The position numbers and the translations under genes are program-made. Below are positions 22,025-63,801 of a stretch of 64,000 nucleotides of DNA, piece by piece. The notes beneath the pieces are model-generated. The model had not been told where the DNA came from, searched no databases, and was given only the letters and a program-made list of their open reading frames with translations. The stretch is taken from positions 62,001-126,000 of IMG/VR virus record IMGVR_UViG_3300042455_001850; one strand, 5' to 3'. Position 1 is the stretch's first letter, and each line of letters opens with the position of its first letter. This stretch comes from a virus.

Positions 22025-23176
22025 ATGAGTGATAAAATAGAATTCGAACCTAAATTAACTTTAGAGGAGACAATTGGAATAAAAGATAGATTTATAAATT
22101 TTTACCGAGACCTTGAGTCAATCCAAGACTATTTTTTGGCTAGAAAAAAAGAAAAAATTGTGGATATTAACCACGATAAATACACTAAAAACATGTTTGA
22201 TGATTATAGTGTTGAGCCAAAAAACATGGAATTTGAAATCGAGGTGATTGAGGGTAATTTATTTAATCCTTCTACACAGATTATCACTTCACTACCTTTA
22301 GAATCACAAATCGGTAGACAAATCATGATGGGTATTAGAGAAAAAACCACTAACAAATATGTTGGGTTTATTCGTGTGGCTTCACCTGTTTTATCTATTA
22401 AACCTAGAAATGATTTCTTTGGTGAAACAATTAGAGCTACAGCTGTTAATAGACATATGATTAATGGGGCCATTATTGTTCCTGTACAACCTTTTGGGTA
22501 TAACTACTTAGGTGGTAAACTATTAGCTTTAATTTCATGTTCACACGAAATTAAAAATATGTTAAAAGAAAAGTATGGTGATAAAATCGATACTTGTTTT
22601 TTTGAAACAACCTCCCTTTATGGTGACATCAAAGGTATGAGTCAATACGATGGTTTAAAACCATATATCCGTTACCAAGACATGACAGAATCAGATTTGT
22701 TTTTATTCCCAACAGAAGAAGTTTATGGGCCGATTAGAGCTAAAATGAGAGAGTTATACGGTAACCCTGAATGGGGTGGAAATACTGTAGACCCTGTACC
22801 ATCAGGACCAAAGATGAGAGAGTTTAATAAGGCAATATCAGTCCTTAAAAATCACCTTAAACATTATGATATCGATGCTTATAATGAGTTTCATTCTTTC
22901 ACCAAAACACATATGAAAGCCAAAACCAAAAAGAGATATTATTATTCAAACTTTGGATACGACAATGTTATTGAACATGTTAATTCTGGTGGTGAAATTC
23001 CTTTAATTGAAGGACAAAATTTCCATAAACACAAACTTTCTCATATGATTGAGTGGTGGAAAGGGAAAGCACAAAAAAGATACGAGAAACTTGTTGAGGA
23101 AAATAAACTAAGACACGAAATGGAAATCTACACTCTTGAAAGAATAGAGAATAACGATATAGACATGGTGAGATAA
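22025..23176 (+). CDS. DruA/DUF4338-like protein
   Basis: A 383-residue protein. The central part has the layout of the DUF4338 (DruA) family: a self-recognition strand (GFIRVASPVLS), an RD-x-FFG motif, RHMINGAIIVPVQP, then GGKLLALISCSHEIK, and an FFETTSLYG strand where the family has LLETF(V/I). DruA is part of Druantia defence systems in bacteria, but its molecular role is not established. Here it follows a nuclease and precedes a small P-loop protein, so a role in phage DNA processing or counter-defence is possible. The family match is from memory of the pattern and only moderate. Confidence 0.6.
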   Translation: MSDKIEFEPKLTLEETIGIKDRFINFYRDLESIQDYFLARKKEKIVDINHDKYTKNMFDDYSVEPKNMEFEIEVIEGNLFNPSTQIITSLPLESQIGRQIMMGIREKTTNKYVGFIRVASPVLSIKPRNDFFGETIRATAVNRHMINGAIIVPVQPFGYNYLGGKLLALISCSHEIKNMLKEKYGDKIDTCFFETTSLYGDIKGMSQYDGLKPYIRYQDMTESDLFLFPTEEVYGPIRAKMRELYGNPEWGGNTVDPVPSGPKMREFNKAISVLKNHLKHYDIDAYNEFHSFTKTHMKAKTKKRYYYSNFGYDNVIEHVNSGGEIPLIEGQNFHKHKLSHMIEWWKGKAQKRYEKLVEENKLRHEMEIYTLERIENNDIDMVR

Positions 23177-24594: not shown

Positions 24595-25400
24595 TAAAAA
24601 TAATCTATCACTGTGCTGATTTACACATCAGACTTTATAAAAGACACGATGAATACCGTGAACAATTTCAAAAGTTCTTTGATTCAGTTAAAGAACATAT
24701 GGAAGAAAACAACCTTAACAGAGAAGAGGTTAGGATTGTTATTGCTGGTGATGTGGTACACTCTAAGAATCAGTTAACACCTGAACTAGTAGATTTAACA
24801 ACATGGTTCTTTAAAAATTGTTGTGACATTTGTGATACCATAGTTATTTTGGGTAACCACGATTTCTTAGCCAATAACTTAGATAGAATGGATGCGTTAA
24901 CACCCATTATTGATACAATGAATGATGATAGACTTAAGTTTTTAAAACACACAGGATGTTTTGAGGATGAGAATATTGTTTGGTGTTTATATGGTCATAT
25001 CGAAGGTTCACAGAGACCTGAAATAGAAAAGGCCAAAGAGGACTTTGGTGATAAGACATACGTTGGTTTATATCATGACCCTTTAATTGGTTTAAAGACA
25101 AATGTTGGGTTTGAATTTGAGGACGGACAAGACATTTCTATTTTTGATGGTTGTGATTTTGTTTGTTGTGGTGATATTCACTTATACCAAGTGATGAATT
25201 ATCATGGAACTACTATCGTACAACCCTCATCAATGATACAACAAGATTTTGGTGAGTCTGTAGATAAACACGGGTTTGTTATATGGAATGTAGAAACTAA
25301 AAAACATAAACATATTAACTTAGAATCCGATTATGGGTTTTATACTTTTAAAATAAGCTCAATAGAGGATATTGAAAATGAAATAGAAAGGTTAGTATGA
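24591..25400 (+). CDS. gp47: gp47-like recombination nuclease (Mre11/SbcD family)
   Basis: A 269-residue calcineurin-like metallophosphoesterase. Metal-binding motifs are in the family order: ADLHIR (Asp10, His12), VIAGDVVHS near 51, VILGNHDF near 86-93, a YHDP histidine near 163 and CGDIHLYQ near 199. It corresponds to T4 gp47, the nuclease subunit that pairs with the gp46 ATPase in end resection and recombination-dependent replication. The gp46-like gene lies 2.5 kb downstream on the same strand, separated by seven small genes instead of being adjacent. Confidence 0.88.
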   Translation: MIKIIYHCADLHIRLYKRHDEYREQFQKFFDSVKEHMEENNLNREEVRIVIAGDVVHSKNQLTPELVDLTTWFFKNCCDICDTIVILGNHDFLANNLDRMDALTPIIDTMNDDRLKFLKHTGCFEDENIVWCLYGHIEGSQRPEIEKAKEDFGDKTYVGLYHDPLIGLKTNVGFEFEDGQDISIFDGCDFVCCGDIHLYQVMNYHGTTIVQPSSMIQQDFGESVDKHGFVIWNVETKKHKHINLESDYGFYTFKISSIEDIENEIERLV

Positions 25401-25711
25401 TAAAACCTAAAAAATATATAAAAAAATACCATTTTGGTGATTTTGATTATGAAAAGGAGTTAAATAGACTTTTAAATGAATTATCTGGACAGATTCAAAG
25501 TAGTAATAGAGGGGGACCTGCCAATTGGATTGTTTGTTCACCACAAGTAGCTGATTCAATAAACTCAATGATTATGGAATCCCAAATAGGTGATTGGAGG
25601 ATAGAAGATAACAGTTTTATACAAGATATACAATTAAGACCTAGAAGAGTACCTCAGTATCTTAACTTGGATATTAGTATCACTAACACAGATAATAATT
25701 ATTTTTTATAA
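25397..25711 (+). CDS. Small protein with capsid-like NWIVCSPQVADSI motif
   Basis: A 104-residue protein overlapping the gp47 stop by four bases. Residues 42-56 (GPANWIVCSPQVADS) resemble a conserved strand-helix of T4-type major capsid proteins, but the rest is too short to be a capsid protein. It may be a decayed or repurposed fragment. The likeness is by eye only. Confidence 0.6.
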   Translation: MIKPKKYIKKYHFGDFDYEKELNRLLNELSGQIQSSNRGGPANWIVCSPQVADSINSMIMESQIGDWRIEDNSFIQDIQLRPRRVPQYLNLDISITNTDNNYFL

Positions 25712-26031: not shown

Positions 26032-26249
26032 CAATAGGGGATAAAGTAAAATATGAGAATTCTTTTTCAGATACTATGATAGGTACTATAGTTAGTAAAG
26101 AACAACCTACTTGTAAATGTAAAGGAATGGGTAAATGGGTTATTGACTTTAGTGGTGAAATTAAAAAAATAAAAATAAGTGATGAAAGATTAAGTCTATA
26201 TAATATAGAACCAACTATGACTAATTTAAATTTTAATTTTGGAAAATAA
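26028..26249 (+). CDS. Small hypothetical protein, SH3-like
   Basis: A 73-residue protein starting on a four-base overlap with the preceding gene. The opening IGDKVKYENSFSDTMIGTIV has the look of a small SH3/KOW-like barrel, and a TCKCKG motif sits near residue 25. No family can be named with confidence. Confidence 0.65.
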   Translation: MTIGDKVKYENSFSDTMIGTIVSKEQPTCKCKGMGKWVIDFSGEIKKIKISDERLSLYNIEPTMTNLNFNFGK

Positions 26250-26640
26250 TAAAAAATATCCTGATAATATTGTCTTTAATGAAAAGACAGATAAATTTGA
26301 TGCTAACCTAAAGCATTACCCAACAACGGTGGGTGCTCAAAAGTTTGAAATTTTACAGATAGATAAATCAGATGCAATAAAGGCTGATAAATATTTTAAT
26401 AAAAAATTAGAAGAATTAAAGGAAGAGTATGATAAGTTGCTGAATGAGTATGAGTCAACCAAGTTATTATACAACACCAAATATTCATTTCAACCTATAT
26501 TAGGTGAGATTTATTATATCTATAAGAATAATAATGATGAAAACTTTTTAAGTATCATAAAACCTAATGAATGGAATAAACCATGTTATGGTAGTTATAA
26601 ACTAAATACTAATGGAACATGGGAAGAGATAGAGTATTAA
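26239..26640 (+). CDS. DUF2452-like protein, TTG start
   Basis: A 133-residue protein. The TTG at 26239 is used because no ATG lies near the N-terminus and the frame overlaps the upstream stop by 11 nt. The sequence follows the DUF2452 pattern: PDNIVFNE at the start, HYPTTVGA, a central helix, FQPILGEIYYIYKN, then LSIIKPNEWN and a final YKLNTNGTW. DUF2452 proteins occur in Bacteroidota and some phages with no known function. Confidence 0.65.
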   Translation: MENNKKYPDNIVFNEKTDKFDANLKHYPTTVGAQKFEILQIDKSDAIKADKYFNKKLEELKEEYDKLLNEYESTKLLYNTKYSFQPILGEIYYIYKNNNDENFLSIIKPNEWNKPCYGSYKLNTNGTWEEIEY

Positions 26641-26647
26641 TAATAAT

Positions 26648-27238
26648 ATGAATAGAAATTTAACCCTACAAGAAAAAATAGTAAAATTAACCACAAATAG
26701 TTTTCATAACATAGATAATAACATAAGACAAGGTGAACAAATTACTCGTGAAAACTATGAAACTTTAAGAGAACAAATAATTGGTCTTTTGGAATATCTT
26801 GAAAATGAAAAGGTATATGTTTTAGATTTACCAGGTAATATAATACCACACCCTGAAGCTAGAAGAAGGATGGTAGACCCTGAGTTAGCTAACACACCAA
26901 CAACAAAAACTTTAGTAGTTGGTACTCAAAATTTTAATACTTTTTATGATTTAGTTATAAAAATAATGGAAGATTTAAGTAGTAATAAAGAAGTTTTTAT
27001 ATACACAATAGACACCGTTAGGATATTCAACCCGATAAATTTTGAACCTGATTATAGATACATAGTTAGATATAGTACTATCGATATGGATTATTGGTAT
27101 AACCCACAATACGTAGAACAAATAAATAACCCTATACAACCTGAACAATATTTTGAAAGGTATTCAAATACAAGAACAGATGAAAAATCTAATAAACCAA
27201 AATCTATTGGTGATAGTAAATTGATACACAAATTTTAA
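26648..27238 (+). CDS. Hypothetical protein
   Basis: A 196-residue soluble protein with an N-terminal helical half and a beta-type C-terminal half. No domain recognised. Its stop overlaps the start of the next gene (TAATG). It belongs to the gp47-gp46 operon. Confidence 0.72.
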   Translation: MNRNLTLQEKIVKLTTNSFHNIDNNIRQGEQITRENYETLREQIIGLLEYLENEKVYVLDLPGNIIPHPEARRRMVDPELANTPTTKTLVVGTQNFNTFYDLVIKIMEDLSSNKEVFIYTIDTVRIFNPINFEPDYRYIVRYSTIDMDYWYNPQYVEQINNPIQPEQYFERYSNTRTDEKSNKPKSIGDSKLIHKF

Positions 27239-31432: not shown

Positions 31433-32248
31433 ATGGTATCATACAAACGTTACATTGACACAACAGAGGACTCTATTTCTAACTATTTAAAAGAGGTTAG
31501 AAAGATTGATTTGGTAACACCCGAAGAAGAGTTGGAGTTAGCTAAAAAAATTGCTGAGGGGGACAAAAGGGCATTAGATAAATTGGTTAAAGCTAATCTT
31601 AGATTTGTTATCTCAATAGCTAAAGAATATCAAGGACAAGGGATTCCTTTGGTAGATTTGATTTCTGAAGGTAACTACGGATTGATAAAAGCTGCAGGTA
31701 AATTTGACCATACAAGAGGTTTTAGGTTTATTTCTTATGCTGTTTGGTGGGTTAAGCAATCGATTCTACAATCTTTGTGTGAAAATTCAAGAACAGTAAG
31801 ACTTCCTGTTAATATCACAAACCAGTTATCAAAAATTAAAAAAGAGATTGCTGTCTTCGAACAAGAAAATCAAAGAATGCCAATCAACGGTGAGATGGAT
31901 TTATCTGTACTAAATCACCCTACATGTACTTCATTGAATGATAAAATAAATGAAGAAGGTGATGAGATTATGGACTTAATTCCTGATTTAACATTTGCTA
32001 GACCTGACGAGGACACTATGTCTGATGAAATCTTAAAAAACGAATTGGAAAAAACTTTATCAATTTTAAGTGATAGAGAAAGAAAAATTGTTGACATGTA
32101 TTTTGGTGTTGATGGTGGTGCTTTAACTCTTGAACAAATTGGTGATGAGTTTGGTCTTACAAAAGAACGTATTCGTCAGATTAAAGAAAAGGCTTTAAGA
32201 AAGTTGAAGAATAATAGTGAAAATCTTTTTGAATTTGTACAAAAGTAA
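31433..32248 (+). CDS. RpoD-like primary-type sigma factor
   Basis: A 271-residue sigma-70 family protein whose size and order match Bacteroidota RpoD, which lacks region 1.1. Region 1.2 includes ISNYLKEVRKIDLVTPEEE; region 2 includes ANLRFVISIAKEYQ, LVDLISEGNYGLIKAA and FRFISYAVWWVKQSI (-10 recognition); region 4 includes LTLEQIGDEFGLTKERIRQI with the -35 helix. It should bind host core RNA polymerase and direct it to TAnnTTTG-type or phage promoters. T4 gp55 is far shorter and diverged, so this looks acquired from a host. Its stop overlaps the Sir2 start. Confidence 0.9.
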   Translation: MVSYKRYIDTTEDSISNYLKEVRKIDLVTPEEELELAKKIAEGDKRALDKLVKANLRFVISIAKEYQGQGIPLVDLISEGNYGLIKAAGKFDHTRGFRFISYAVWWVKQSILQSLCENSRTVRLPVNITNQLSKIKKEIAVFEQENQRMPINGEMDLSVLNHPTCTSLNDKINEEGDEIMDLIPDLTFARPDEDTMSDEILKNELEKTLSILSDRERKIVDMYFGVDGGALTLEQIGDEFGLTKERIRQIKEKALRKLKNNSENLFEFVQK

Positions 32249-32973
32249 TGAAAATAGTTGTTTTTACAGGGGCAGGAGTTTCTAAGGAATCAGGTATTGA
32301 TACATTCAGAGATGCTGGTGGTACATGGGAAAATGAAGATGTTGAAGCTGTTGCCACACCTGAAGGTTGGAGAAAAGACAGAGAAAGAGTATTGGATTTT
32401 TACAACAAAAGAAGGCAACAGTTACTTGGTGTCGAACCCAATGAGGCACATAAACTTATTGCTGAATTAGAAAAAGAACATGAGGTAACCGTTATCACAC
32501 AAAATGTAGATAATTTACATGAACGTGGGGGTTCTACAAACATCTTACATTTACATGGTGAGTTAACTAAAGCACAGAGTAGTTTAAACCATAAGAAAGT
32601 TATTGATGTTGGTTATAAACCAACTAATATTGGTGACAAACATGAAGACGGTTCACAATTAAGACCACACATTGTTTGGTTTAATGAGTACCCCAATAAT
32701 ATAAATGAATCTGTAATAGCTCTTAGAAATTGTGATGTTTTATTAGTTATTGGCACCACATTATTTATAAGTTATACACTTGGTCTATTGAGGTCTTGTA
32801 AAGATTTACATAACCCTAATATGGGGGTGATAGACGTTGTTTGCATCGACCCCAACCCTCCTAAAGGTGAACTAGATGGTATGTTTAGAGATGTTAATTA
32901 TATTGAAAAACCTGCCACTGAGGGTATGAAAGAATTTATTGAAAATTATTTGCCTAAATTTATTGCTAATTAA
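32248..32973 (+). CDS. Sir2-family NAD-dependent deacylase
   Basis: A 241-residue sirtuin. It shows the NAD-binding FTGAGVSKESGIDTFRDAGG motif at residues 6-25, TQNVDNLHERGG near 85-96 and the catalytic His in LHLHGELTK near 102-110. The usual four zinc-binding cysteines after the catalytic His are absent; the segment reads AQSSLNHKK, as in zinc-free Bacteroidota sirtuins. A second NAD motif is VIGTTLFISYT near 171. The start overlaps the sigma-factor stop (TAATG), so both are made together. Deacylation of host proteins or NAD consumption are possible roles. Confidence 0.87.
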   Translation: MKIVVFTGAGVSKESGIDTFRDAGGTWENEDVEAVATPEGWRKDRERVLDFYNKRRQQLLGVEPNEAHKLIAELEKEHEVTVITQNVDNLHERGGSTNILHLHGELTKAQSSLNHKKVIDVGYKPTNIGDKHEDGSQLRPHIVWFNEYPNNINESVIALRNCDVLLVIGTTLFISYTLGLLRSCKDLHNPNMGVIDVVCIDPNPPKGELDGMFRDVNYIEKPATEGMKEFIENYLPKFIAN

Positions 32974-51451: not shown

Positions 51452-51764
51452 ATTTGGAACATATATAGAAATGGAAACAGAAACTAGTACAAAAATAAGT
51501 ACAGATAAACTCGGAGTGTTTGTTGAACGACTTAAAAAAATAGGAATTGATGTAAAACTATCAGGAAATTTTCCTTGGGTTTATCTTGGTAAAATCAATG
51601 GTGTTAGAGTTACTGAAACATTTTATGCTAATCACGGGTTTACTGTGATGTTTCTTCCTAGTAGAATGGATAGTCCACCATCCGAGTTTACAGACATTAC
51701 GGAGATTTTTAAATTAATTAGAAAATATACAAAAAAACCTATTGACAAATCAGAAAATAAATAG
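51435..51764 (+). CDS. Hypothetical protein
   Basis: A 109-residue protein; I prefer the ATG at 51435 over an in-frame TTG at 51426. Beta-alpha type with GNFPWVYLGKINGVRVTE and no recognised family. Possibly translated by coupling from the preceding small gene. Confidence 0.68.
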   Translation: MEVKTKFGTYIEMETETSTKISTDKLGVFVERLKKIGIDVKLSGNFPWVYLGKINGVRVTETFYANHGFTVMFLPSRMDSPPSEFTDITEIFKLIRKYTKKPIDKSENK

Positions 51765-51812
51765 TATAATTTATAACTGTTTTAAAGAAACCTAATTAAA
51801 AAAATAGAAATT

Positions 51813-53255
51813 ATGTCAAGATTAACTGAAGCATTACAAACTGAAAACACAACCACTAAGAACGGGATGGAAACTAATTCATCTTCTCTTAATGAGTGTG
51901 TTAACCTTTTCTTCTCCATTGGAGCAATGAGAGGTAAAAGTTCTGAGAGTGTTGTAAAACTTTTCTCAAAGGCTTTCAGTGAAGAACCAACTACAGCATT
52001 AAGAATCCTTTTTTGGGCAAGAGATGTTAGAGGTGGTGCTGGTGAGAGAAAAATCTTTAGAGATATTTTATCTTACCTAGTTGATAACTACTCAAAAGTA
52101 GTTAAAGTTAATCTTAACTTAATTCCTGAATACGGGAGATGGGATGACGTTCATATCCTTTTCGGAACTGAATTGGAAAATGACGCCATCACACTTCTTG
52201 TAGAAGGTTTAAAAAGTGGTAATGGTTTATGTGCTAAATGGATGCCCCGTAAAGGTTTGGTATTTAATAAAGTACGTAAAGCACTTAAGTTGGACCCAAA
52301 ATCCCTTAGAAAATTACTTGTGTCTTTGTCAAACACGGTAGAACAAAAAATGTGTTCGAAAAGTTGGGCAGAGATTGAGTATTCAAAGACACCATCTTTG
52401 GCTATGTCAAGGTATACAAAAGCTTTTGGCAGAAACGACCAAGAAAGATTTGGTCAATTTATTGAAGCCCTTCAAAAAGGTGAAACTAAAGTTAACGCCG
52501 GAGCTTTGTATCCTTACGATGTTACCAAGAATCTTAGATTCGGTAATAAAGATTTGGCTAATGAACAATGGAAAGCCCTACCAAATTATATGGAAGGTTC
52601 AACAGAACTTGTCCTACCTTTGGTTGACGTTTCAGGTTCAATGGATTGTTCGGTAGGAGGTAATCCAAACCTTACATGTATGGAGGTGGCTATTTCTTTG
52701 GGTATGTACATCTCTGAAAGAAATGAGGGAGCATTTAAAGATATGTTTATGACATTTTCTTCAAATCCCGAAATTCAAAAATTGATGGGTCCACTTAGTG
52801 ACCGTTACAATCAATTAGCTAGAGCTAAATGGGGTATGTCAACTAATTTAGAAGCAGCGTTCAAGACTATCTTGAATCAAGCAGTTAAATTTGGTGTTCC
52901 ACAGGAAGAGATGCCAACAAAGATTCTTATCCTATCCGATATGGAGTTTGATTCCGCTACTAGTAGTGGTTGGGGAAATGAATCTGATTGGAATCCCTCG
53001 GCTATGTCGATGATTGATGAAATGTACACTAACGCTGGTTATGTAAAACCTGGAATTATTTTCTGGAACCTACATTCCAACGGGGGTAATTTCCCAGCAA
53101 GATTTGATGAGGTTGGAACTGCTTTAATTAGTGGTTTCAGTCCATCAATCTTGAAATCGGTTCTGAATAATCCTAACAGTTTAACACCTGTTAATATTAT
53201 GAATGAAACCGTACATTCAGAAAGATATGAACCTGTAAAGGTTTGGATTCTTTAA
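51813..53255 (+). CDS. TROVE/vWA (Ro60-like, DUF2828-type) RNA-binding protein
   Basis: A 480-residue protein. The N-terminal 250 residues are helical repeats of TROVE/DUF2828 type, with the signature ALRILFWARDVRGGAGERK near 63-81, MPRKGLVFNKVRKAL near 145 and PSLAMSRYTKAF near 193. The C-terminal vWA domain has the MIDAS motif DVSGSM at 272-277 and ILILSDMEF near 371. Ro60 family proteins form a ring that binds Y RNAs and misfolded RNAs and guides exonucleases. It directly precedes about 500 nt of non-coding, structured sequence. Base composition is higher in G+C than most neighbours. Confidence 0.82.
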   Translation: MSRLTEALQTENTTTKNGMETNSSSLNECVNLFFSIGAMRGKSSESVVKLFSKAFSEEPTTALRILFWARDVRGGAGERKIFRDILSYLVDNYSKVVKVNLNLIPEYGRWDDVHILFGTELENDAITLLVEGLKSGNGLCAKWMPRKGLVFNKVRKALKLDPKSLRKLLVSLSNTVEQKMCSKSWAEIEYSKTPSLAMSRYTKAFGRNDQERFGQFIEALQKGETKVNAGALYPYDVTKNLRFGNKDLANEQWKALPNYMEGSTELVLPLVDVSGSMDCSVGGNPNLTCMEVAISLGMYISERNEGAFKDMFMTFSSNPEIQKLMGPLSDRYNQLARAKWGMSTNLEAAFKTILNQAVKFGVPQEEMPTKILILSDMEFDSATSSGWGNESDWNPSAMSMIDEMYTNAGYVKPGIIFWNLHSNGGNFPARFDEVGTALISGFSPSILKSVLNNPNSLTPVNIMNETVHSERYEPVKVWIL

Positions 53256-53790
53256 AATATTGTGGTATTGAGGAATAATTGCAGCAAAATTAAAATCTTA
53301 AATTTATAGCTACATAAGAGAGGGCTTTGATAACCCGTCTAACCACAAGGGTGTAAAGGTGAAAGCCGGGGACCACTCAGAGTTAGACAAAAGAGTCAAA
53401 CGATTCTGTTACCACAAAATTATTAAAAAGGTGTAATGGGTACGTCAAACGAGACTATAAGACCCAATAAACGAATGGTTTCTGCAAATTCTTCTAGAAA
53501 CTTGTAAGAACGACGAGGGGTTTTACCGATTTACCCCAAATTAAATTATAAATTGGCGACCATAGGAGAGTTTAAACGTGGGAAAATCTCACACTTGAGG
53601 TCGTAAAACATACCTCTTGATTATCACAAGTAAAAATGGTAGTTGGATTTGTCTCAATCAAATAAAAGACACCCGAACCAAAATGGGTTAATAATATTGG
53701 GGTGGTTACTCAGCCACCGAAAATAACAAAAGGACCACCATTCCGACACCTAATTTTTTAAAGGGAGCTTGTCTCCCTTTTTTTATTTTA
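53256..53790 (+). ncRNA. Large structured non-coding RNA next to the TROVE gene
   Basis: About 500 nt with stops in all frames, no tRNA and a strong terminator at the end. Hand G+C count for 53281-53760 is about 37%, against about 22% in a sampled AT-rich coding line. Visible pairings: GGCTTT (53323) with AAAGCC (53362); within it ACCC with GGGT; the loop GTCTAAC (53337-53343) pairs perfectly with GTTAGAC (53382-53388), a pseudoknot; AGAGTC/GATTCT (53392-53407); TGGGT/ACCCA (53437, 53462); GTTTCT/AGAAAC (53478, 53496); GGGGT/ACCCC (53517, 53533); GTGGGA/TCTCAC (53578, 53587); GAGGT/ACCTC (53597, 53612); GGTGGTT/AGCCACC (53701-53718). No known family recognised. No separate promoter is evident, so it may be cut from the TROVE transcript. 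Confidence 0.65.
53760..53785 (+). terminator. Strong rho-independent terminator
   Basis: Perfect 8-bp stem AAAGGGAG (53760-53767) / CTCCCTTT (53773-53780) with a 5-nt loop and T-run. It marks the 3' end of the candidate large RNA. Confidence 0.88.
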
Positions 53791-53845: not shown

Positions 53846-54064
53846 ATGACTAGAATAGAAGAGATATTTTTTGAGGCTTTTGAATTGGGTATTCAAAATA
53901 AAATGTACGACACAGTATCTAAAATGGTTGGTAGTGGCGATTATAAATACGTGGAACTCCGCCAAATTTATGAAATTGCTTTTGAAAAAGAAAAAAAGGT
54001 TTTAATTAATAATAATTTATATGAACAAACAAACAGTTCAGAAGTTTATCAACCGAGAGCTTAA
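53846..54064 (+). CDS. Small acidic protein
   Basis: A 72-residue helical protein from the ATG at 53846 (an in-frame TTG lies two codons earlier). An ATATTTATTT variant of the late motif lies 20 nt upstream. It overlaps the next gene by 44 nt. Function unknown. Confidence 0.62.
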   Translation: MTRIEEIFFEAFELGIQNKMYDTVSKMVGSGDYKYVELRQIYEIAFEKEKKVLINNNLYEQTNSSEVYQPRA

Positions 54065-54752
54065 GGCTAAAGATATTTTCTATTTAAAAGAAGTTACCAA
54101 AAAAGAGGCTTACGATTTTGTTAAAACTTATCACTACTTGGGTGAAGCTAAATTTTTTGCTAAATTTTCTTATGCTGTAATTGATAGGGAGACTGAAGAT
54201 ATCATTGGTGTTGCTACTTTCTCTAATCCACAAGGTAATGTAGCTTTAAAGGGTTGGTTTGGTTTATCCAATGATAACCAAACGGTTTTAGAACTTAGTA
54301 GACTTTGTGTTTTACCTGAATTAAATGGTACAAACCTAACTTCATACCTATTAGGTGGTAGTATTAGATTACTAAAAAAAGAAGGTGTTAAGGCAGTTAT
54401 AACATTAGCGGATGATAGTAGACATAGCGGTAGTATATATCAGGTCTGTAACTTCACCTATTACGGCTTAACAGATAAGAAATCAGATTTTTTTAGATGG
54501 GATGGTAAGGTTAACCCTAGAGGTTCAACAAAAGAAGTCCAAGGTGTTTGGATTCCTAGAACAAGGAAACATAGATATGCTTATATTATTGATAAATCTT
54601 TAAAGTGCTTATATATTGAAGAAATGAGACCACAAAAAGGTGATACAAATGAATATGATTGTTGTGCCGGTAAAAAACAAATTTACGACAATAGATTTAA
54701 AAAATGGTATTCTTGCCCCAAATGTGATGAAATAACTGAATTAGCTTTTTAA
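54021..54752 (+). CDS. Mom-like GNAT acyltransferase with zinc ribbon
   Basis: A 243-residue protein with an acyltransferase-type fold: FVKTYHYLGEAKFFAKFS near 30-47, IIGVATFSNPQG near 60-71, LELSRLCVLPELNGTNL near 88-104 and GSIYQVCNFTYYG near 134-146. This order resembles the Mu Mom family, which converts adenine in DNA to a carbamoylmethyl derivative and protects against restriction. A zinc ribbon with CCAGKK and CPKC ends the protein. The relation is by pattern only. The next gene is a second member. Confidence 0.68.
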   Translation: MNKQTVQKFINRELKAKDIFYLKEVTKKEAYDFVKTYHYLGEAKFFAKFSYAVIDRETEDIIGVATFSNPQGNVALKGWFGLSNDNQTVLELSRLCVLPELNGTNLTSYLLGGSIRLLKKEGVKAVITLADDSRHSGSIYQVCNFTYYGLTDKKSDFFRWDGKVNPRGSTKEVQGVWIPRTRKHRYAYIIDKSLKCLYIEEMRPQKGDTNEYDCCAGKKQIYDNRFKKWYSCPKCDEITELAF

Positions 54753-54753
54753 A

Positions 54754-55548
54754 ATGAAATATTTTTTTGAAATTAAAGAGATAGATAAAACTCTTGCTAT
54801 AGAATTTGTACAAGAAAGACACTATTCAAAAGTAATGCCTAAATTAACCAAACATTGGTTAGGTTGTTTTTTAAACAATGAGTTAGTTGGTGTTGTTACA
54901 TTGGGGTGGGGGACACAACCCTTACAAACAATTAAAAAGTTATTCCCGAACTTAAAATCAGAGGATTATTACGAAATTGGTAAGATGTGTATGGATGATT
55001 CTATGCCTAGAAATTCAGAGTCACAGATGTTAGCTCAAGTAGTTAGATGGATGAAAACTAATTTACCTGAAAAGAAATTTCTTTATACATGGGCAGATGG
55101 AATTGTGGGTAAAGTTGGGTATGTGTACCAAGGGTCTAATTTTTATTATGGTAATTTTATTTGGACCGATATCTACATATCACCTTTAGGGGAGAAAATA
55201 CACCCAAGAAGTTCAAAAGCTTTATTGAAAGAAAATGCTGAATTTTCGGGTAAAGAAAAATTATTTTGGATGACCCCTGATTTTATAAAAATAAAAGGTA
55301 TTCGTAGAATTAGAGGAAAACAATTTAGATATATATACCCCCTGAATAAAAAATCAAAAGAACTTTTAAGAAGAGAATCTACGGTAGTATGGAACAAAAT
55401 ATACCCAAAAGAAGTTGACCTGTTATGGAAAGAACAAAAAGGTAAAGGTGATTATGTTTTATTAACGAGTAAACCTGAAATGAATTTAAGTGTTGTTGAA
55501 TATAATCAAAACAATGTTAATGCACATAAAAAGTTAAAGAAATCTTAG
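54754..55548 (+). CDS. Second Mom-like GNAT acyltransferase
   Basis: A 264-residue protein starting one base after the first Mom-like gene. It shows AIEFVQERHYSKVMPKLTKH near 16-35, LVGVVTLGWGTQP near 45-57, YYEIGKMCMDDSMPRNSES near 75-93, LYTWADGIVGKVGYVYQGSN near 110-129 and IHPRSSK near 149. The HYS and YQ-x-SN positions correspond to HYL and YQVCN of the first protein. Two non-identical members in tandem could act on different bases or as a heterodimer; this is inference. Confidence 0.66.
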   Translation: MKYFFEIKEIDKTLAIEFVQERHYSKVMPKLTKHWLGCFLNNELVGVVTLGWGTQPLQTIKKLFPNLKSEDYYEIGKMCMDDSMPRNSESQMLAQVVRWMKTNLPEKKFLYTWADGIVGKVGYVYQGSNFYYGNFIWTDIYISPLGEKIHPRSSKALLKENAEFSGKEKLFWMTPDFIKIKGIRRIRGKQFRYIYPLNKKSKELLRRESTVVWNKIYPKEVDLLWKEQKGKGDYVLLTSKPEMNLSVVEYNQNNVNAHKKLKKS

Positions 55549-59843: not shown

Positions 59844-59917
59844 CGATGTGTATATCAGTTGGTTAGATAGACACTCTGATAAGGTGTAGGTCGGAGGTTC
59901 GAGCCCTCCCACATCGA
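59844..59917 (+). tRNA. tRNA-Ile (GAT)
   Basis: Acceptor CGATGTG/CACATCG, D-arm TATC/GATA, anticodon loop CTGATAA with GAT, T-stem GGAGG/CCTCC with TTCGAGC. All stems pair. Confidence 0.92.
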
Positions 59918-59957
59918 CAAAAAAGAAAAAGTTCTTTGATGTATTGGTATTAGTAAT

Positions 59958-60030
59958 GACTCAGTAGCTCAATTGGTAGAGCTCCACACTGTTAATGTGG
60001 CCGTTACAGGTTCAAGTCCTGTCTGAGTCG
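59958..60030 (+). tRNA. tRNA-Asn (GTT)
   Basis: Acceptor GACTCAG/CTGAGTC, D-stem GCTC/GAGC, anticodon loop CTGTTAA with GTT, T-stem ACAGG/CCTGT with TTCAAGT. All stems pair. Confidence 0.93.
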
Positions 60031-60160
60031 CTGAGGTTGATTGGGGAATGATATAACGTTAACGTGTCAGTAGTCGTGGTTATATCGGAGTTGTAACTGT
60101 CCGAGTAAAGCCAATCGTAAAAGGGGATGTCCACACAACCATCTTCCCCTTTCCTAACTT
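60031..60160 (+). ncRNA. Structured RNA element inside the tRNA array
   Basis: This 130-nt spacer is not a standard tRNA but has strong pairing. GATTGG (60039-60044) pairs with CCAATC (60111-60116), closing a 78-nt unit of tRNA length. Inside, GATATAAC (60050-60057) pairs perfectly with GTTATATC (60079-60086), and GGA/TCC forms a third arm. Directly after, AAAGGGGA (60120-60127) pairs with TCCCCTTT (60145-60152). It may be a tRNA-like remnant or a distinct small RNA. Confidence 0.5.
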
Positions 60161-60241
60161 GGGAACTGAAAGTCGTTTGGATACGGCAGCGAAACTGTAA
60201 ATTTCGTCCTCGCGGGAGTGGTTCGAGTCCACCAGGTCCCA
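60161..60241 (+). tRNA. tRNA-Tyr (GTA), slightly irregular
   Basis: Acceptor GGGAACT/AGGTCCC has one A-G mismatch. Anticodon stem CGAAA/TTTCG with loop CTGTAAA (GTA), a long variable arm (TCCTCGCGGGA) as in bacterial tRNA-Tyr, T-loop TTCGAGT on a four-pair stem. The D-arm region is about two bases longer than usual. Confidence 0.72.
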
Positions 60242-60287
60242 CAAAAAAAAATAAATGTAATATAAGTGGATTTTAACTCTGTTTGTT

Positions 60288-60297
60288 ATATTTATAA
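60288..60297 (+). promoter_or_regulatory. Late-type promoter motif ATATTTATAA
   Basis: TATATTTATAATAAAAG, 12 nt before the HNH gene start at 60310. Confidence 0.5.
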
Positions 60298-60309
60298 TAA
60301 AAGAATATT

Positions 60310-60759
60310 ATGAAACAGAGAGAAGTTAAAATTACTGATGAAGAAATAAAGTTGGCATATGACAAATACGACACACTACATCAGGCATCCGCAGAATTAA
60401 AAATGACTACTGTGTCATTATGGAGAAGGGCAAAAAAAATTGGTTTAGCCTGGAAAGATAAAAACTTTAAACCTGAACAACAAAAAATACCTTTAAACGA
60501 GATTATAGAAGGTAAACATCCGTACTACCAAACCTTAAAATTAAAAAAAAGGTTATTGAAAGAAGGGGTTAAAGAAAATAAGTGTGATATTTGCGGTATA
60601 ATAGATTGGAATAATATAGAGTTATCAATGCAATTAGACCATATTGATGGTGACTCACACAACCACAAATTGGATAATTTAAGGATGGTTTGCCCTAACT
60701 GCCATTCACAAACAAACACTTATTGTGGTAAAAATAAAAAAATCAAAGCGGAAATTTGA
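60310..60759 (+). CDS. HNH endonuclease in tRNA array
   Basis: A 149-residue protein. The N-terminal part has a helix-turn-helix-like segment (HQASAELKMTTVSLWRRAKK). The C-terminal HNH domain has CDICG near residue 96, QLDHIDGDSHNHKLDNLRMV near 114-133 with the catalytic His and Asn, and CPNCH near 134-138. Such free-standing HNH genes in phages often act as homing endonucleases. It splits the tRNA array between Tyr and Trp, which suggests insertion. Confidence 0.87.
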   Translation: MKQREVKITDEEIKLAYDKYDTLHQASAELKMTTVSLWRRAKKIGLAWKDKNFKPEQQKIPLNEIIEGKHPYYQTLKLKKRLLKEGVKENKCDICGIIDWNNIELSMQLDHIDGDSHNHKLDNLRMVCPNCHSQTNTYCGKNKKIKAEI

Positions 60760-60789
60760 AAACAACATGTCTTCCTGTATATTTTATAC

Positions 60790-60861
60790 GCGTCTTTGGT
60801 GTAATTGGTAGCACGGCTGGTTCCAACCCAGTCGGTCAGGGTTCGAGGCCTTGGGGATGTG
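60790..60861 (+). tRNA. tRNA-Trp (CCA)
   Basis: Anticodon stem GCTGG/CCAGT with loop TTCCAAC (CCA), D-stem GTGT/GCAC, T-stem CAGGG/CCTTG with TTCGAGG. The acceptor GCGTCTT/GGGATGT pairs throughout but uses four or more G-U pairs. Confidence 0.8.
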
Positions 60862-60866
60862 CAAAT

Positions 60867-60939
60867 GGTGATGTAGCTCAGTTGGTAGAGCAAAGGACTG
60901 AAAATCCTTGTGTCGAAGGTTCAATTCCTTCCATCACCA
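60867..60939 (+). tRNA. tRNA-Phe (GAA)
   Basis: Acceptor GGTGATG/CATCACC, D-stem GCTC/GAGC, anticodon loop CTGAAAA with GAA, T-stem GAAGG/CCTTC. All pair. Confidence 0.94.
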
Positions 60940-60946
60940 CCATTAT

Positions 60947-61021
60947 AGGGTAATGGACTAATTGGCAAGTCACCACGTTTGGGACGTGGGCATCGTGAGA
61001 GTTCGAGTCTCTCTTACCCTA
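60947..61021 (+). tRNA. tRNA-Pro (TGG)
   Basis: Acceptor AGGGTAA/TTACCCT, D-stem GACT/AGTC, anticodon stem CCACG/CGTGG with loop TTTGGGA (TGG), T-stem GAGAG/CTCTC. The variable loop is seven bases. Confidence 0.9.
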
Positions 61022-61029
61022 CTATACAA

Positions 61030-61102
61030 TGTCCTATGGTGTAATTGGCAACACGTCGGTTTTTGGTACCGAAGAGTCGAGGTTCGAACCCTTGTGGGAC
61101 AA
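61030..61102 (+). tRNA. tRNA-Gln (TTG)
   Basis: Acceptor TGTCCTA/TGGGACA with one G-U pair, D-stem GTGT/ACAC, anticodon stem TCGGT/ACCGA with loop TTTTGGT (TTG), T-stem CGAGG/CCTTG with TTCGAAC. Confidence 0.92.
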
Positions 61103-61108
61103 CAATAT

Positions 61109-61180
61109 GGTGTTTGAAGCATTAAGGTGATGTACTAGTTTGTGGGACTAGGAAAGACGGGTCGGTACCGTCCTTACACC
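61109..61180 (+). tRNA. tRNA-His (GTG), irregular
   Basis: Perfect anticodon stem CTAGT/ACTAG with loop TTGTGGG (GTG). The G at 61109 and C at 61180 give the G-1:C73 pair diagnostic of tRNA-His. The acceptor GTGTTTG/CTTACAC has two U-U mismatches, and the T-loop is GTCGGTA instead of the usual TTCRAxx. It may be a diverged but working tRNA or one in decay. Confidence 0.72.
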
Positions 61181-61186
61181 CAAAAA

Positions 61187-61273
61187 GGAAAGGTGGGTGA
61201 GTGGCTAAAACCAACAATCTGCTAAGTTGTCGTACCTGTAAGGGTACCGAGGGTTCGAATCCCTCCCTTTCCT
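61187..61273 (+). tRNA. tRNA-Ser (GCT)
   Basis: Acceptor GGAAAGG/CCTTTCC, anticodon stem ACAAT/GTTGT with loop CTGCTAA (GCT), long variable arm GTACC/GGTAC, T-stem GAGGG/CCCTC with TTCGAAT. Confidence 0.93.
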
Positions 61274-61279
61274 CCATAT

Positions 61280-61351
61280 GTGGATGTGATGTAACGGTTA
61301 ACATGAGACTCTTATACAGTCTTCTCGGTGGTTCAACTCCACCCATCCATA
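61280..61351 (+). tRNA. tRNA with anticodon TAT (Ile, AUA codons)
   Basis: Acceptor GTGGATG/CATCCAT, D-stem ATGT/ACAT, anticodon stem AGACT/AGTCT with loop CTTATAC (TAT), T-stem GGTGG/CCACC with TTCAACT. AUA is a frequent codon in these AT-rich genes. Confidence 0.88.
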
Positions 61352-61356
61352 CTATT

Positions 61357-61430
61357 ACACTCTTAGCTCAATGGATTAGAGCACAACGTTACGGACGTTG
61401 GGGTTGGTGGTTCGAGTCCATCAGAGTGTA
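61357..61430 (+). tRNA. tRNA-Arg (ACG)
   Basis: Acceptor ACACTCT/AGAGTGT, D-stem GCTC/GAGC, anticodon stem CAACG/CGTTG with loop TTACGGA (ACG), T-stem GGTGG/CCATC with TTCGAGT. Confidence 0.93.
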
Positions 61431-61439
61431 CAATAATAA

Positions 61440-61510
61440 GGCACCATGCCCGAGTGGTTAGGGGTCGGTCTGCAAAACCGCTTACATTGGTTCGAACCCA
61501 ATTGGTGCCT
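61440..61510 (+). tRNA. tRNA-Cys (GCA)
   Basis: Acceptor GGCACCA/TGGTGCC with U73 as expected for Cys, anticodon loop CTGCAAA (GCA), T-stem ATTGG/CCAAT with TTCGAAC. The anticodon stem has one mismatch at its outer pair. Confidence 0.85.
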
Positions 61511-61516
61511 CTATCT

Positions 61517-61597
61517 TTAATTTCTTTTATATTCAATATAGGCCCAAACACCAACAAATATTGGGGTTAGTATAGCAATAACTATTTCTGTATTCAT
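61517..61597 (-). CDS. 26-residue membrane peptide coupled to the T9SS-type protein
   Basis: A minus-strand frame whose ATG overlaps the stop of the large secreted-protein gene (ATGA), which supports it as real and translationally coupled. The peptide is one hydrophobic helix (IVIAILTPIFVGVWAYI) with a basic end. It could be an accessory of the secreted protein or simply a small membrane peptide; no family known. Confidence 0.55.
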   Translation of the reverse strand: MNTEIVIAILTPIFVGVWAYIEYKRN

Positions 61598-63801
61598 CGC
61601 ATAATTGTTAAATGTCCTGTTATCATTTTACGTGAGTCATCATACTCAGACCCATACATTATTCTCCAAACATAAATCCCATCAAAACACATTTTATTAT
61701 TATAAGTACCATCCCAACCAACGGTATGATTGTATGATTCAAAAATTGTTTCACCCCATCTATTGAATACCAATAAATTATAATCATAGACATCAAACCC
61801 ATCAGTAAATATTGGTAACCAAATATTGTTGAAAGCATCACCATCGGGGGTAAATGTATTAGGTATATAAATTAATTCTTGTGGACATTCTTGTATTGCT
61901 ATATTAGCTTGTTCTTCATTAGAAACACAACCATTAACCGTTTGGGAAACGCTAATTGTATAAAAACCAACATTATTCCAAACATAAGGTAAACTATTAT
62001 CTTGTATTGTATCACCTTCAACAACCCAATCAAACAACCCAGATAAAGATGAATAAGCTGTATAGATTCTAAAAATACTATCACCTTCACAAAGTTGGTT
62101 AAATTCATATGAAGGTGTTACAGATGTTATGATTGGTTGTGGGTTTACAATAACGTTGATTGTTGTATCAAATGGGCAATTACTTTGTGTATATGTATAA
62201 GTTACATCATTGTTTGTTATGATACCTTGTTGTGGGCAAAATTCATCAGTCTGAACCCCATTGACTAAGAAAGTACCATTTAAAGGTGAACCCACTAAAT
62301 CTACACAACCATCATAATCACAAAAAGGACCAATAGGGTCTATTGTAGGGTTTATGTTTAAAATAAATGTAGTGAAGTAAGAGGTATCACTATTACAACC
62401 AATAGGACTAGTAGAATAAACACTTATAGAGTCTTGATATAAACCACTAGGTTCTAATGACCAATCCGTTGTTATATTATCAGTACCTTGACCATTTATT
62501 ATTTGTGGTGTTGTAGACCATATGTAGTTGTAACCAACACCCATAGAAGGTACACTATAACTTTCTGATGTTGATAAATAACATACCGTATCAGGACCAC
62601 TAATAGGTGTCATTATTATTTGTGCTGGGTTAGTGAGTGTTGCATTACCTGTTACGGTACAACCTATACCGTCTGTAATTAAAAAACTATAATTACCATA
62701 ACAAAGGTTAGTGGGGTTAAAAGTTGTTTGTAGAGTATTCCAAGAAATAGTAGTGACACCATTGGTTCCGTTAGGGATTACATTAATACTACCATCACAA
62801 TAGTTATAACAAGTTGGGTCAATAAAAGTAATTGTAGGTTGTGGTAAGTTAGGTGGACCAGGTTGTACAAACACCGTATCAGGTCCTGGACCGGCAATAC
62901 TATTACAAGTATTCCATCCAACATTACAAGAAGGATATACTAGTTGACAAGTATAATTAGCTCCTTGTACAGGTGGTGTAACCGTAATGGACGCACCAAC
63001 CCCAATTGGATTTGGGTTACCTACAATATACCATGTTGGTACAGGTAAAACAGTTGGTCCACTTGGAGTGTATCGGTACGCATCATTATTTGCTGTCCAT
63101 TGTGTGGAATTCCTACCTGGTACAGTTATCGCCACGGTTCCTGTGGTATTATGTAATCCTTGAACCGCGGTACCTCCCGCCCAAGCTAGACAGTTTGGTT
63201 TTGATTGAATATAATTTTCTATTACGTTTGTTGATTCATAAATCACTGTATGAAATGTCCCCAGTAAATTTGTACATGAAAACATAGGGACACCAACCCA
63301 ACTAACAACTAATTTTCTACAAGGTGCTGTACCTTGAACTTGGTACCTAATTTGCCCACCTAAACCTGGGTGCCAATCTTGCCAAGGACCCATGACACAA
63401 TTTTTTGGTACTGTACCCGCACCATTAGGTATTGTTGCTGAAGTAAATGTTGTTGGTTGTGCCGGTGAAAAAGAAATCCAACCGTTAGAACCAACCCAAA
63501 ATTGATTGTATGTTTGTCCAAAGAAACAAAATGTAAACCCAATATTAAAAGGACCTTGTTGTGAATCATCCGACATAAATAATTGTGTACCAGTATTTGT
63601 TTGTGTTACATAAGGAATATTTGTAACACCGTAGTTTGTTGTTTGATTTGGATTTGAACCTGGTCCACATTGACTAAAATCGGCAGTTAATGTTGTTGAC
63701 CCAACACCACAAGGTAGTATTTGGTCTGGTCCTAAATAAGGACAGTATTGTGAATAGGTCACAAAAGAAATTAGTATAAAAAGGTATTTAATTAAGTTCA
63801 T
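61594..63801 (-). CDS. Secreted surface protein with T9SS type B (gliding motility-type) C-terminal domain
   Basis: A 735-residue protein. Residues 1-18 form a Sec signal peptide (NLIKYLFILISFVTYSQ). Residues 85-240 look like a Bacteroidota extracellular beta domain (WVGSNGWISFSP, then NYIQSKPNCLAWAGG). A SprB-type repeat lies near 325-395 (PTCYNYCDGSINVIPNGTNG, LCYGNYSFLITDGIGCT), followed by PKD-like segments. The last 90 residues (YIPNTFTPDGDAFNNIW, FNRWGETIFES, CFDGIYVWRI) are the CHU_C/gliding motility-associated C-terminal domain, a type B signal for the type IX secretion system. An ATATTTATAA motif lies 11 nt upstream. It is likely exported and displayed by the host. Confidence 0.88.
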   Translation of the reverse strand: MNLIKYLFILISFVTYSQYCPYLGPDQILPCGVGSTTLTADFSQCGPGSNPNQTTNYGVTNIPYVTQTNTGTQLFMSDDSQQGPFNIGFTFCFFGQTYNQFWVGSNGWISFSPAQPTTFTSATIPNGAGTVPKNCVMGPWQDWHPGLGGQIRYQVQGTAPCRKLVVSWVGVPMFSCTNLLGTFHTVIYESTNVIENYIQSKPNCLAWAGGTAVQGLHNTTGTVAITVPGRNSTQWTANNDAYRYTPSGPTVLPVPTWYIVGNPNPIGVGASITVTPPVQGANYTCQLVYPSCNVGWNTCNSIAGPGPDTVFVQPGPPNLPQPTITFIDPTCYNYCDGSINVIPNGTNGVTTISWNTLQTTFNPTNLCYGNYSFLITDGIGCTVTGNATLTNPAQIIMTPISGPDTVCYLSTSESYSVPSMGVGYNYIWSTTPQIINGQGTDNITTDWSLEPSGLYQDSISVYSTSPIGCNSDTSYFTTFILNINPTIDPIGPFCDYDGCVDLVGSPLNGTFLVNGVQTDEFCPQQGIITNNDVTYTYTQSNCPFDTTINVIVNPQPIITSVTPSYEFNQLCEGDSIFRIYTAYSSLSGLFDWVVEGDTIQDNSLPYVWNNVGFYTISVSQTVNGCVSNEEQANIAIQECPQELIYIPNTFTPDGDAFNNIWLPIFTDGFDVYDYNLLVFNRWGETIFESYNHTVGWDGTYNNKMCFDGIYVWRIMYGSEYDDSRKMITGHLTIMR

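Follow-up and report, generated by a model that had tools for sequence, protein, structure and literature searches.

Ro60 proteins and their Y RNAs are known from animals and some bacteria, and the locus described here raises the question of whether a bacteriophage can encode a ribonucleoprotein of the same kind and, if so, by which part of the RNA the protein would take hold. The locus lies in a 64,000-nt stretch of viral DNA (positions 62,001 to 126,000 of IMG/VR record IMGVR_UViG_3300042455_001850), referred to here as the window, in which a Ro60-type gene is followed by a large folded RNA. We put the probability that the two form one transcription unit for a phage ribonucleoprotein at roughly three in four, and judge it equally probable, from sequence comparison and by analogy, that a short element closing the RNA serves as a handle for the Ro-type protein on what would be the phage equivalent of a Y RNA, and that the RNA partners the protein through it.

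The Ro-type gene and its transcription unit

In a search of its own record, the protein encoded at the head of the locus matched neither Pfam TROVE (PF05731) nor, above the cut-off, vWA_Ro60 (E 0.21); DUF2828 and DUF7788 were matched instead, together with phrog_850, which carries the label 'RNA-binding protein'. An AlphaFold model built from an alignment of 23 sequences (mean pLDDT 77.3) gave three Foldseek matches with E below 1e-3, namely a TROVE domain (9kop), the Ro60 of Thermus phage phiLo (9l5y) and the Ro autoantigen (1yvr). The ten top solved structures in a second structural alignment are all Ro60, Rsr or TROVE proteins (Z 12.8-17.4 over 334-392 residues), with the first vWA/MIDAS-only structure ranking after them at Z 11.1. 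Because these ten stand above the vWA-only entries, we class the modelled protein as a Ro60-type ring, kin of human Ro60; the original prediction of a Ro60-like protein agrees with a model that aligns with solved Ro60/Rsr structures over most of its length. The MIDAS, a site with the signature DxSxS, is intact as had been proposed, reading DVSGS at residues 272-276, with D272, S274, G275 and S276 invariant across the 23 aligned sequences. The protein family is matched in 682 of 50,697 phage records, and a scan with two peptide patterns found at least 12 phage-type Ro loci, a lower bound, among 84,980 bacterial and archaeal species genomes. One Ro-type gene, in a 380-kb record (L016, 4001-5425), has a stop inside the matched stretch.

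A loose promoter pattern was matched ahead of the Ro-type gene in 15 of 15 loci inspected, the window among them, and at the start of the RNA no promoter match on the + strand is better than 9/12. The strong terminator that had been predicted is present, and two neighbouring Mom-family genes (54021-54752 and 54754-55548) follow 3' of the RNA. This layout, with the RNA between the stop codon of the protein gene and the terminator, and with the sole 12/12 promoter upstream of that gene, would also suit a cis-acting 3'-UTR or leader element that serves mRNA stability or the control of the downstream Mom-like genes and never enters a particle with the protein. We consider such a role unlikely: the terminator lies between the RNA and the Mom genes, and a covarying body of 321 nt is much for a stability element. 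The position of the element in other phages, given below, bears on the same question.

Table 1. Features of the Ro-type locus, in window positions
Feature	Position	Strand	Details
Promoter TTGACA-17-TATAAT	51742..51770	+	12/12 matches; pattern match
Ro60-type protein (helical repeats + vWA), DUF2828/DUF7788, phrog_850	51813..53255	+	480 aa
RNA module 1, 154 nt	53262..53415	+	outer helix 53262-53267/53410-53415; inner helix 53272-53276/53403-53407
Pseudoknot within module 1	53337-53343 with 53382-53388	+	covariation
RNA module 2, 321 nt	53430..53750	+	outer helix 53430-53434/53746-53750; inner helix 53473-53479/53737-53743
Module 2 body hairpins	53526-53533/53549-53556; 53557-53561/53599-53603; 53578-53582/53588-53592	+	double changes in all three
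Module 2 second pseudoknot (proposed, unproven)	53650-53654/53667-53671	+	zero double changes
Module 2 hairpin	53672-53674/53685-53687	+	double changes at 3/3 pairs
Intrinsic terminator	53760..53790	+	hairpin 53760-53780 + T run; sequence

Two covarying RNA modules

Neither strand of 53256-53790 has an ORF of 50 aa or more, in keeping with the predicted non-coding stretch, which measures about 490 nt, and the folding energy of the region has a z of -2.33, with 1 of 100 shuffles equally low. The single '500-nt RNA' first described was right as to structure and wrong as to anatomy: there are two modules in tandem, and a separate helix closes each of them (Table 1). CAGCAA stands at 53282-53287 in module 1, after a 5-nt linker, and CTGCAA at 53482-53487 in module 2, whose ornate body lies inside the closing helix.

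The structures were drawn by hand from the window sequence and from alignments of relatives, a procedure that favours the drawn over slid versions, chiefly for cells paired. The alignments, which superseded an RNAalifold run on the first 11 sequences, drew on 24 located loci and hold 20 sequences for module 1 and 21 for module 2; the near-copies L093 and L144 were excluded, module 1 lies off the contig in L133 and L140, and the end of module 2 is missing from L155. The 29 proposed pairs of module 1 are formed in 91.9% of cells, against 34.5-51.3% in slid controls; 15 of them are double-changed, and their covariation score was equalled by none of 500 shuffles. For module 2 the corresponding values are 56 pairs, 92.0% of cells, 36.4-46.8% in slid controls, 20 double-changed pairs and again none of 500. 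Further pair types in module 2 do not rise above shuffles (134 of 500 as high), its helix 13 is weak (66.3% of cells paired), and invariant pairs, such as five of the seven in its inner helix, are uninformative within the RNA family. The prediction of at least eight stems besides the pseudoknot thus compares with seven drawn helices in module 1 and 13 in module 2, at about 92% of cells paired, and across homologous phage loci both modules are conserved in about 20 relatives, with compensatory changes. Individual hairpins come and go among relatives. Read by eye, the hairpin at the 5' end of module 2 is GTC/GAC in one form and GGAC/GTCC, GGGT/ACCC, GGAT/ATCC, GGAGGTT/AACCTCC or GGGAATT/AATTCCC in others, and the body of module 1 is mostly replaced in L016, in L017 and in the L122 group. 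From these comparisons it is almost certain that a real structured RNA stands behind the Ro-type gene.

Both halves of the 7-bp pseudoknot proposed for module 1, GTCTAAC and GTTAGAC, are present and covary, with counterparts ACATAAC/GTTATGT (L133), CCTAAC/GTTAGG (L012) and ACCTAC/GTAGGT (L149); in this comparison the script chose another helix for L014, L015 and L124, and the homologous body is absent from L016, L017, L122, L138 and L146. On the plain alignment the two halves are paired in 66.7% and 95.6% of cells. The stem ACCC/GGGT, said to close the loop, found no support: its outer pair is broken in 6 of 18 sequences with letters there, and its G strand belongs instead to the helix GGGTG/CACTC, which is formed in 100% of cells and in which all double changes come from one sequence, L149.

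RNA and protein genes travel together, as expected if a phage Ro-type protein stands beside a structured RNA of its own. A 26-mer of module 1 was found in 20 stretches, with the gene or part of it upstream in all 18 examined and also in L008 and L023, which had been retrieved via the gene, a test that is partly circular in that only L084, L086 and L093 are contigs not already retrieved in this way. A 19-mer drawn from the other second-module type occurs in 34 places; in 28 the gene lies on the same strand, 86-499 nt upstream, and the remaining six have less than 500 nt of locus on the gene side. New contigs number 13 among these places, nine with the gene and four without room for it.

This linkage bears on the other possibility raised at the outset, that of an unrelated ornate large RNA of the GOLLD, ROOL or OLE kind standing here by chance. 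Some of these large ornate RNAs occur in phages, and the size of the window RNA, its pseudoknot, its phage setting and a cluster of eleven tRNA genes 6 kb downstream (59844-61511) would all suit one of them. We nevertheless think it very improbable, since no Rfam family matched, the gene lay beside the RNA wherever the locus had room in the RNA searches, and the closing element is common to other RNAs adjoining the same gene. The covariance check against Rfam gave nothing at gathering thresholds, and seven matches at E<=10 were all weak and none convincing. The models of GOLLD, ROOL, OLE and group I introns, which presumably all belong to Rfam 15, did not match the window RNA at gathering or at E<=10.

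A closing element beside phage Ro-type genes

Both window modules are closed by one and the same kind of element. It consists of a helix of about 6-8 pairs, with 2-3 nt (5 nt in module 1) and CNGCAA after the 5' strand, an A-rich stretch ahead of the 3' strand and G or (C/U)G behind it. The element was discovered by reading ORF-poor stretches behind the gene in distant phages with RNAs dissimilar in sequence. An nhmmer profile of the window RNA missed these other RNA types, the best E outside close kin being 0.3, and a DNA search with the RNA in named phages gave eight records with chance-like matches of about 40 bases.

For statistics we used 42 loci with at least 700 nt downstream and mutual protein identity below 85%, from 152 with a gene stretch above 1 kb. 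With matches inside the gene excluded, a strict form of the motif occurs 63 times in 196.5 kb of coding-strand flanks, in 33 of the 42 non-redundant loci, and part of these 63 must be chance, for example that in L103 at -321; shuffled flanks gave a mean of 3.7 (maximum 7) in 3.3 loci (maximum 6) over 20 rounds, the opposite strand 4, and the same records further off 2 in 157.8 kb. A compact form occurs 41 times in the same 196.5 kb, in 21 of 42 loci and with 36 distinct helix arms, against 0 on the opposite strand, 1 further off and 2 in 513 kb-strand of 26 loci without the gene. The finder requires complementarity, so the helix of any single motif is there by construction and the evidence is the excess over controls. 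Two traits of the compact motifs lie outside the selection: A makes up 63% of positions -6 to -2 before the 3' strand, and 39 of 41 read CAGCAA, not CTGCAA. Twelve loci fetched after the motif had been defined, among which L201 is probably the same phage as L149 and L204-L206 are kin, hold 17 strict motifs in ten loci (1 on the opposite strand) and eight compact motifs in five (0 on the opposite strand).

Loci without the gene gave 47 strict matches in 543 kb-strand; four loci of at least 60% GC supply 19 of these, and two, in L133 and L140, are real RNAs at locus edges. The loose form of the motif is therefore by itself non-specific. A scan of the record's own 195.7 kb outside the window, made piecewise, gave 17 loose matches on both strands, four with the strict 3' flank and at spacings of 225-340. 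Within the window the finder returned module 2 and four further loose matches (one on the + strand at 7748, three on the - strand), and it missed module 1 because of the 5-nt linker. A 16-mer with 15 fixed bases was set aside as a probe: it hit 54 stretches, 26 adjoining the gene and 28 not, and of the latter L133 and L140, both at locus edges, have the 3' half CCATTC-CGACA, L134 (62% GC) has CCATTC without the CGACA half, and the remainder look like chance. The strict motif is absent from nine of the 42 loci: L014 and L122 have the module with a G-U pair, L100 and L101 have a 5'-UTR element only, and L102 (Aeh1), L108, L114, L116 and L118 have no motif within the flanks examined.

The element stands on the coding strand beside the Ro-type gene, in one to five copies and with many helix sequences, in very different phages whose RNAs are otherwise unrelated, including those of Listeria, Mycobacterium, Staphylococcus, Campylobacter and Vibrio and Felix-O1-like phages. 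Listeria phage List-36 has three copies upstream of the gene; mycobacteriophages Faith1 and Tyson have three each, the middle copy of Faith1 enclosing T-arm and D-arm sequences; Campylobacter CP30A has two, Staphylococcus S-CoN_Ph9 three, Vibrio MS02 five and Enterococcus 21C1 two; and Felix-O1-like AYO145A has four within a tRNA cluster. What the helix encloses may be a simple loop, a tRNA-like part or, in the window, an ornate fold of 321 nt.

A permuted form, with the strands swapped and a GNNA/GNNG loop cap, stands in the middle of tRNA-like genes in S13, BUCT-ZZ01 and PX29. The pattern for these hairpins, written after seeing them, finds two in each of the three loci, and it finds nothing either in L102, L113 and L114 or in 754 kb-strand of loci L121-L159. 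In the tRNA-like genes concerned (PX29, L119 8720-8990; S13, L099 4360-4600; BUCT-ZZ01, L107 4080-4330) the capped CNGCA hairpin replaces the anticodon arm; S13 has two of them annotated as tRNA, and in PX29 the annotation of one is a two-piece tRNA-Leu. The element might be a signal by which a nuclease or RNA ligase recognises tRNA-like transcripts of the phage for processing or repair, with the Ro-type gene a mere neighbour in the tRNA region. The permuted copies, the place of the Felix-O1-like copies within a tRNA cluster and the RNA ligase genes near the locus in XaC1, Erwinia and Listeria phages are in its favour. This account is improbable in our judgement, as the window RNA has no tRNA-like part visible to the tRNA model, the compact loops of 30-50 nt elsewhere are too small for one, and XaC1 and the Erwinia phage have the ligase, yet no motif.

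In three Vibrio phages, KVP40, 1.081 and 6E35.1a (L100 2460-2506, L101 and L213), the helix GACATT/AATGTC with ACAGCAA lies across the start codon of the Ro-type gene itself; its arms are identical in all three, so that no covariation can be counted. D484 has ACAGCAATG at the annotated start, and the GACATT/AATGTC helix is absent there. An element that spans the start codon hints at autoregulation, in which the protein would repress translation of its own gene as well. An element within the 5' UTR in these three phages is a further point for the cis-acting role; against that role, the side of the gene on which the element stands varies, being upstream in some phages (those of Listeria, Campylobacter and Enterococcus, and Vibrio MS02) and downstream elsewhere, and the neighbours differ too.

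Relation to Y RNAs and a possible role

That a Ro protein goes with an adjacent RNA is known already, and has been suggested for phages too. Chen et al. in 2014 reportedly identified probable Y RNAs close to Ro60 in over 250 species of bacteria and phages, and part of the present finding may already be known through that work; among the matches listed from open-licence PMC, none described the element, the size and build of the RNA or the variety of bodies.

Like a bacterial Y RNA or YrlA with its Rsr, the phage loci pair a Ro-fold protein with an adjoining structured RNA gene, in tandem units, and the RNA is modular, with a closing helix and a variable body that in some phage relatives encloses T-arm and D-arm sequences. 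The difference lies in the recognition element, GNCGAANG in bacteria versus helix plus CNGCAA in phages, and in the window body, which is not tRNA-like. We take GNCGAANG to be the classic Ro-binding motif of bacterial Y RNAs, and it was seen in the bacterial loci of the present analysis as well. Of 398 genomes from a single phylum, 8 contain PF05731 genes, and four of these bacterial loci (L219, L220, L221 and L222) have ladders of three or four tRNA-like units by TROVE genes, with GNCGAANG. Among 16 T-arm anchored units from six bacterial PF05731 loci, nine have GNCGAANG and two have CNGCAA, in other contexts; GNCGAANG occurs in none of the 63 phage motifs (30 nt preceding CNGCAA searched). 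It is likewise absent from the window RNA (53256-53790), where the nearest sequence is AACGAATG at 53470, and no tRNA model matched that RNA at gathering or at E<=10. With neither GNCGAANG nor a tRNA-like domain, the window RNA falls, by its sequence, outside the bacterial Y RNAs described so far, and has a different closing element, common to many phage relatives. The expectation of an RNA much larger than Y RNAs is half right: module 2 measures 321 nt, module 1 at 154 nt is Y-RNA sized, and the two may or may not stay one molecule. Just 3' of the 5' strand, TACA or CACA stands in 12 of the 16 bacterial units, and A precedes CNGCAA in 28 of the 41 compact phage motifs, an ACA likeness that may or may not reflect common descent. 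Each of the two protein types thus comes with an element of its own, a pattern in keeping with protein-specific recognition.

Another close case is Listeria phage CKA15, where three heavily transcribed, seemingly non-coding regions lie up to 2 kb upstream of a Ro-like gene, Y RNAs are named as a possibility, and the Ro-like protein was detected in purified particles (PMC12282133). Listeria phage proteins match the window protein, and the setting of a Ro-like protein with transcribed RNAs nearby is the same; the portions of that report used here describe no RNA motif, structure or binding, and the shared element is what the present work adds. The Listeria motif stretch corresponds to 25,276-25,584 of the cka15 record, unannotated, and differs, if the numbering is the same, from 26,236-26,727, the sole transcribed region with coordinates in those portions; equating the three transcribed regions with the three Listeria motif copies was dropped, as that region misses the motif stretch. 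Two more ORF-poor stretches without the motif lie upstream of the Listeria Ro-like gene (L105 540-835 and 960-1520), and the second corresponds by offset, if collinear, to 26,236-26,727. By its entry title, PDB 9l5y is a phage Ro60 too, from Thermus phage phiLo, with the same fold; no paper on it was found in open-licence PMC. Ro60 or TROVE proteins in phages and Borgs are merely mentioned in what we drew on of PMC7765460, PMC11208441 and PMC7824862.

Ro60 is described as a ring that holds Y RNA on its outside, at a site overlapping the one for misfolded RNA, and in D. radiodurans the Y RNA bridges Rsr and PNPase (PMC4030889, PMC12282133, as far as drawn on here). On our proposal, the phage Ro-type ring would bind each RNA module by the helix and CNGCAA, as Ro60 binds the conserved stem of Y RNA, and the body within the helix would be an exchangeable effector, be it a simple loop, a tRNA mimic or the 321-nt ornate fold. 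The element would then be the grip and the body the tool, which in the window is large and not tRNA-like. By analogy with D. radiodurans, the body might gate the ring and serve as the dock for a partner; an exoribonuclease, for instance host PNPase, would be the likeliest candidate, and the ribonucleoprotein could thereby steer RNA degradation or quality control to the phage's benefit; any particular function remains tentative. Because the CKA15 protein was found in purified particles, one might guess that the ribonucleoprotein particle enters the host with the DNA. We rate it as likely as not that these loci make up a phage Ro ribonucleoprotein class of their own, with a DUF2828-type ring and one covarying handle on exchangeable bodies: 40-nt loops, permuted tRNAs, tRNA-like genes with the handle for an anticodon arm, a 321-nt ornate body and even, in a few phages of Vibrio, the place where translation of the protein itself starts.

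For the study of how phages use Ro60-type proteins, a simple sequence rule now finds probable RNA partners and makes bench tests possible, and it covers such well-studied phages as the kin of Listeria P100/A511, mycobacteriophage Faith1, Campylobacter CP30A and Felix-O1-like phages. With so many bodies attached to the same handle, nature supplies a series in which the task of a Y RNA body can be studied.

Elsewhere in the window, a sigma-70 family factor adjoins a Sir2-family protein (31433-32973), and a phage protein with a DruA (Druantia) domain is encoded at 22025-23176. A 735-aa protein on the - strand (61594-63801) has a CHU_C type IX secretion signal domain and a PKD-like domain, pointing to a host among the Bacteroidota.
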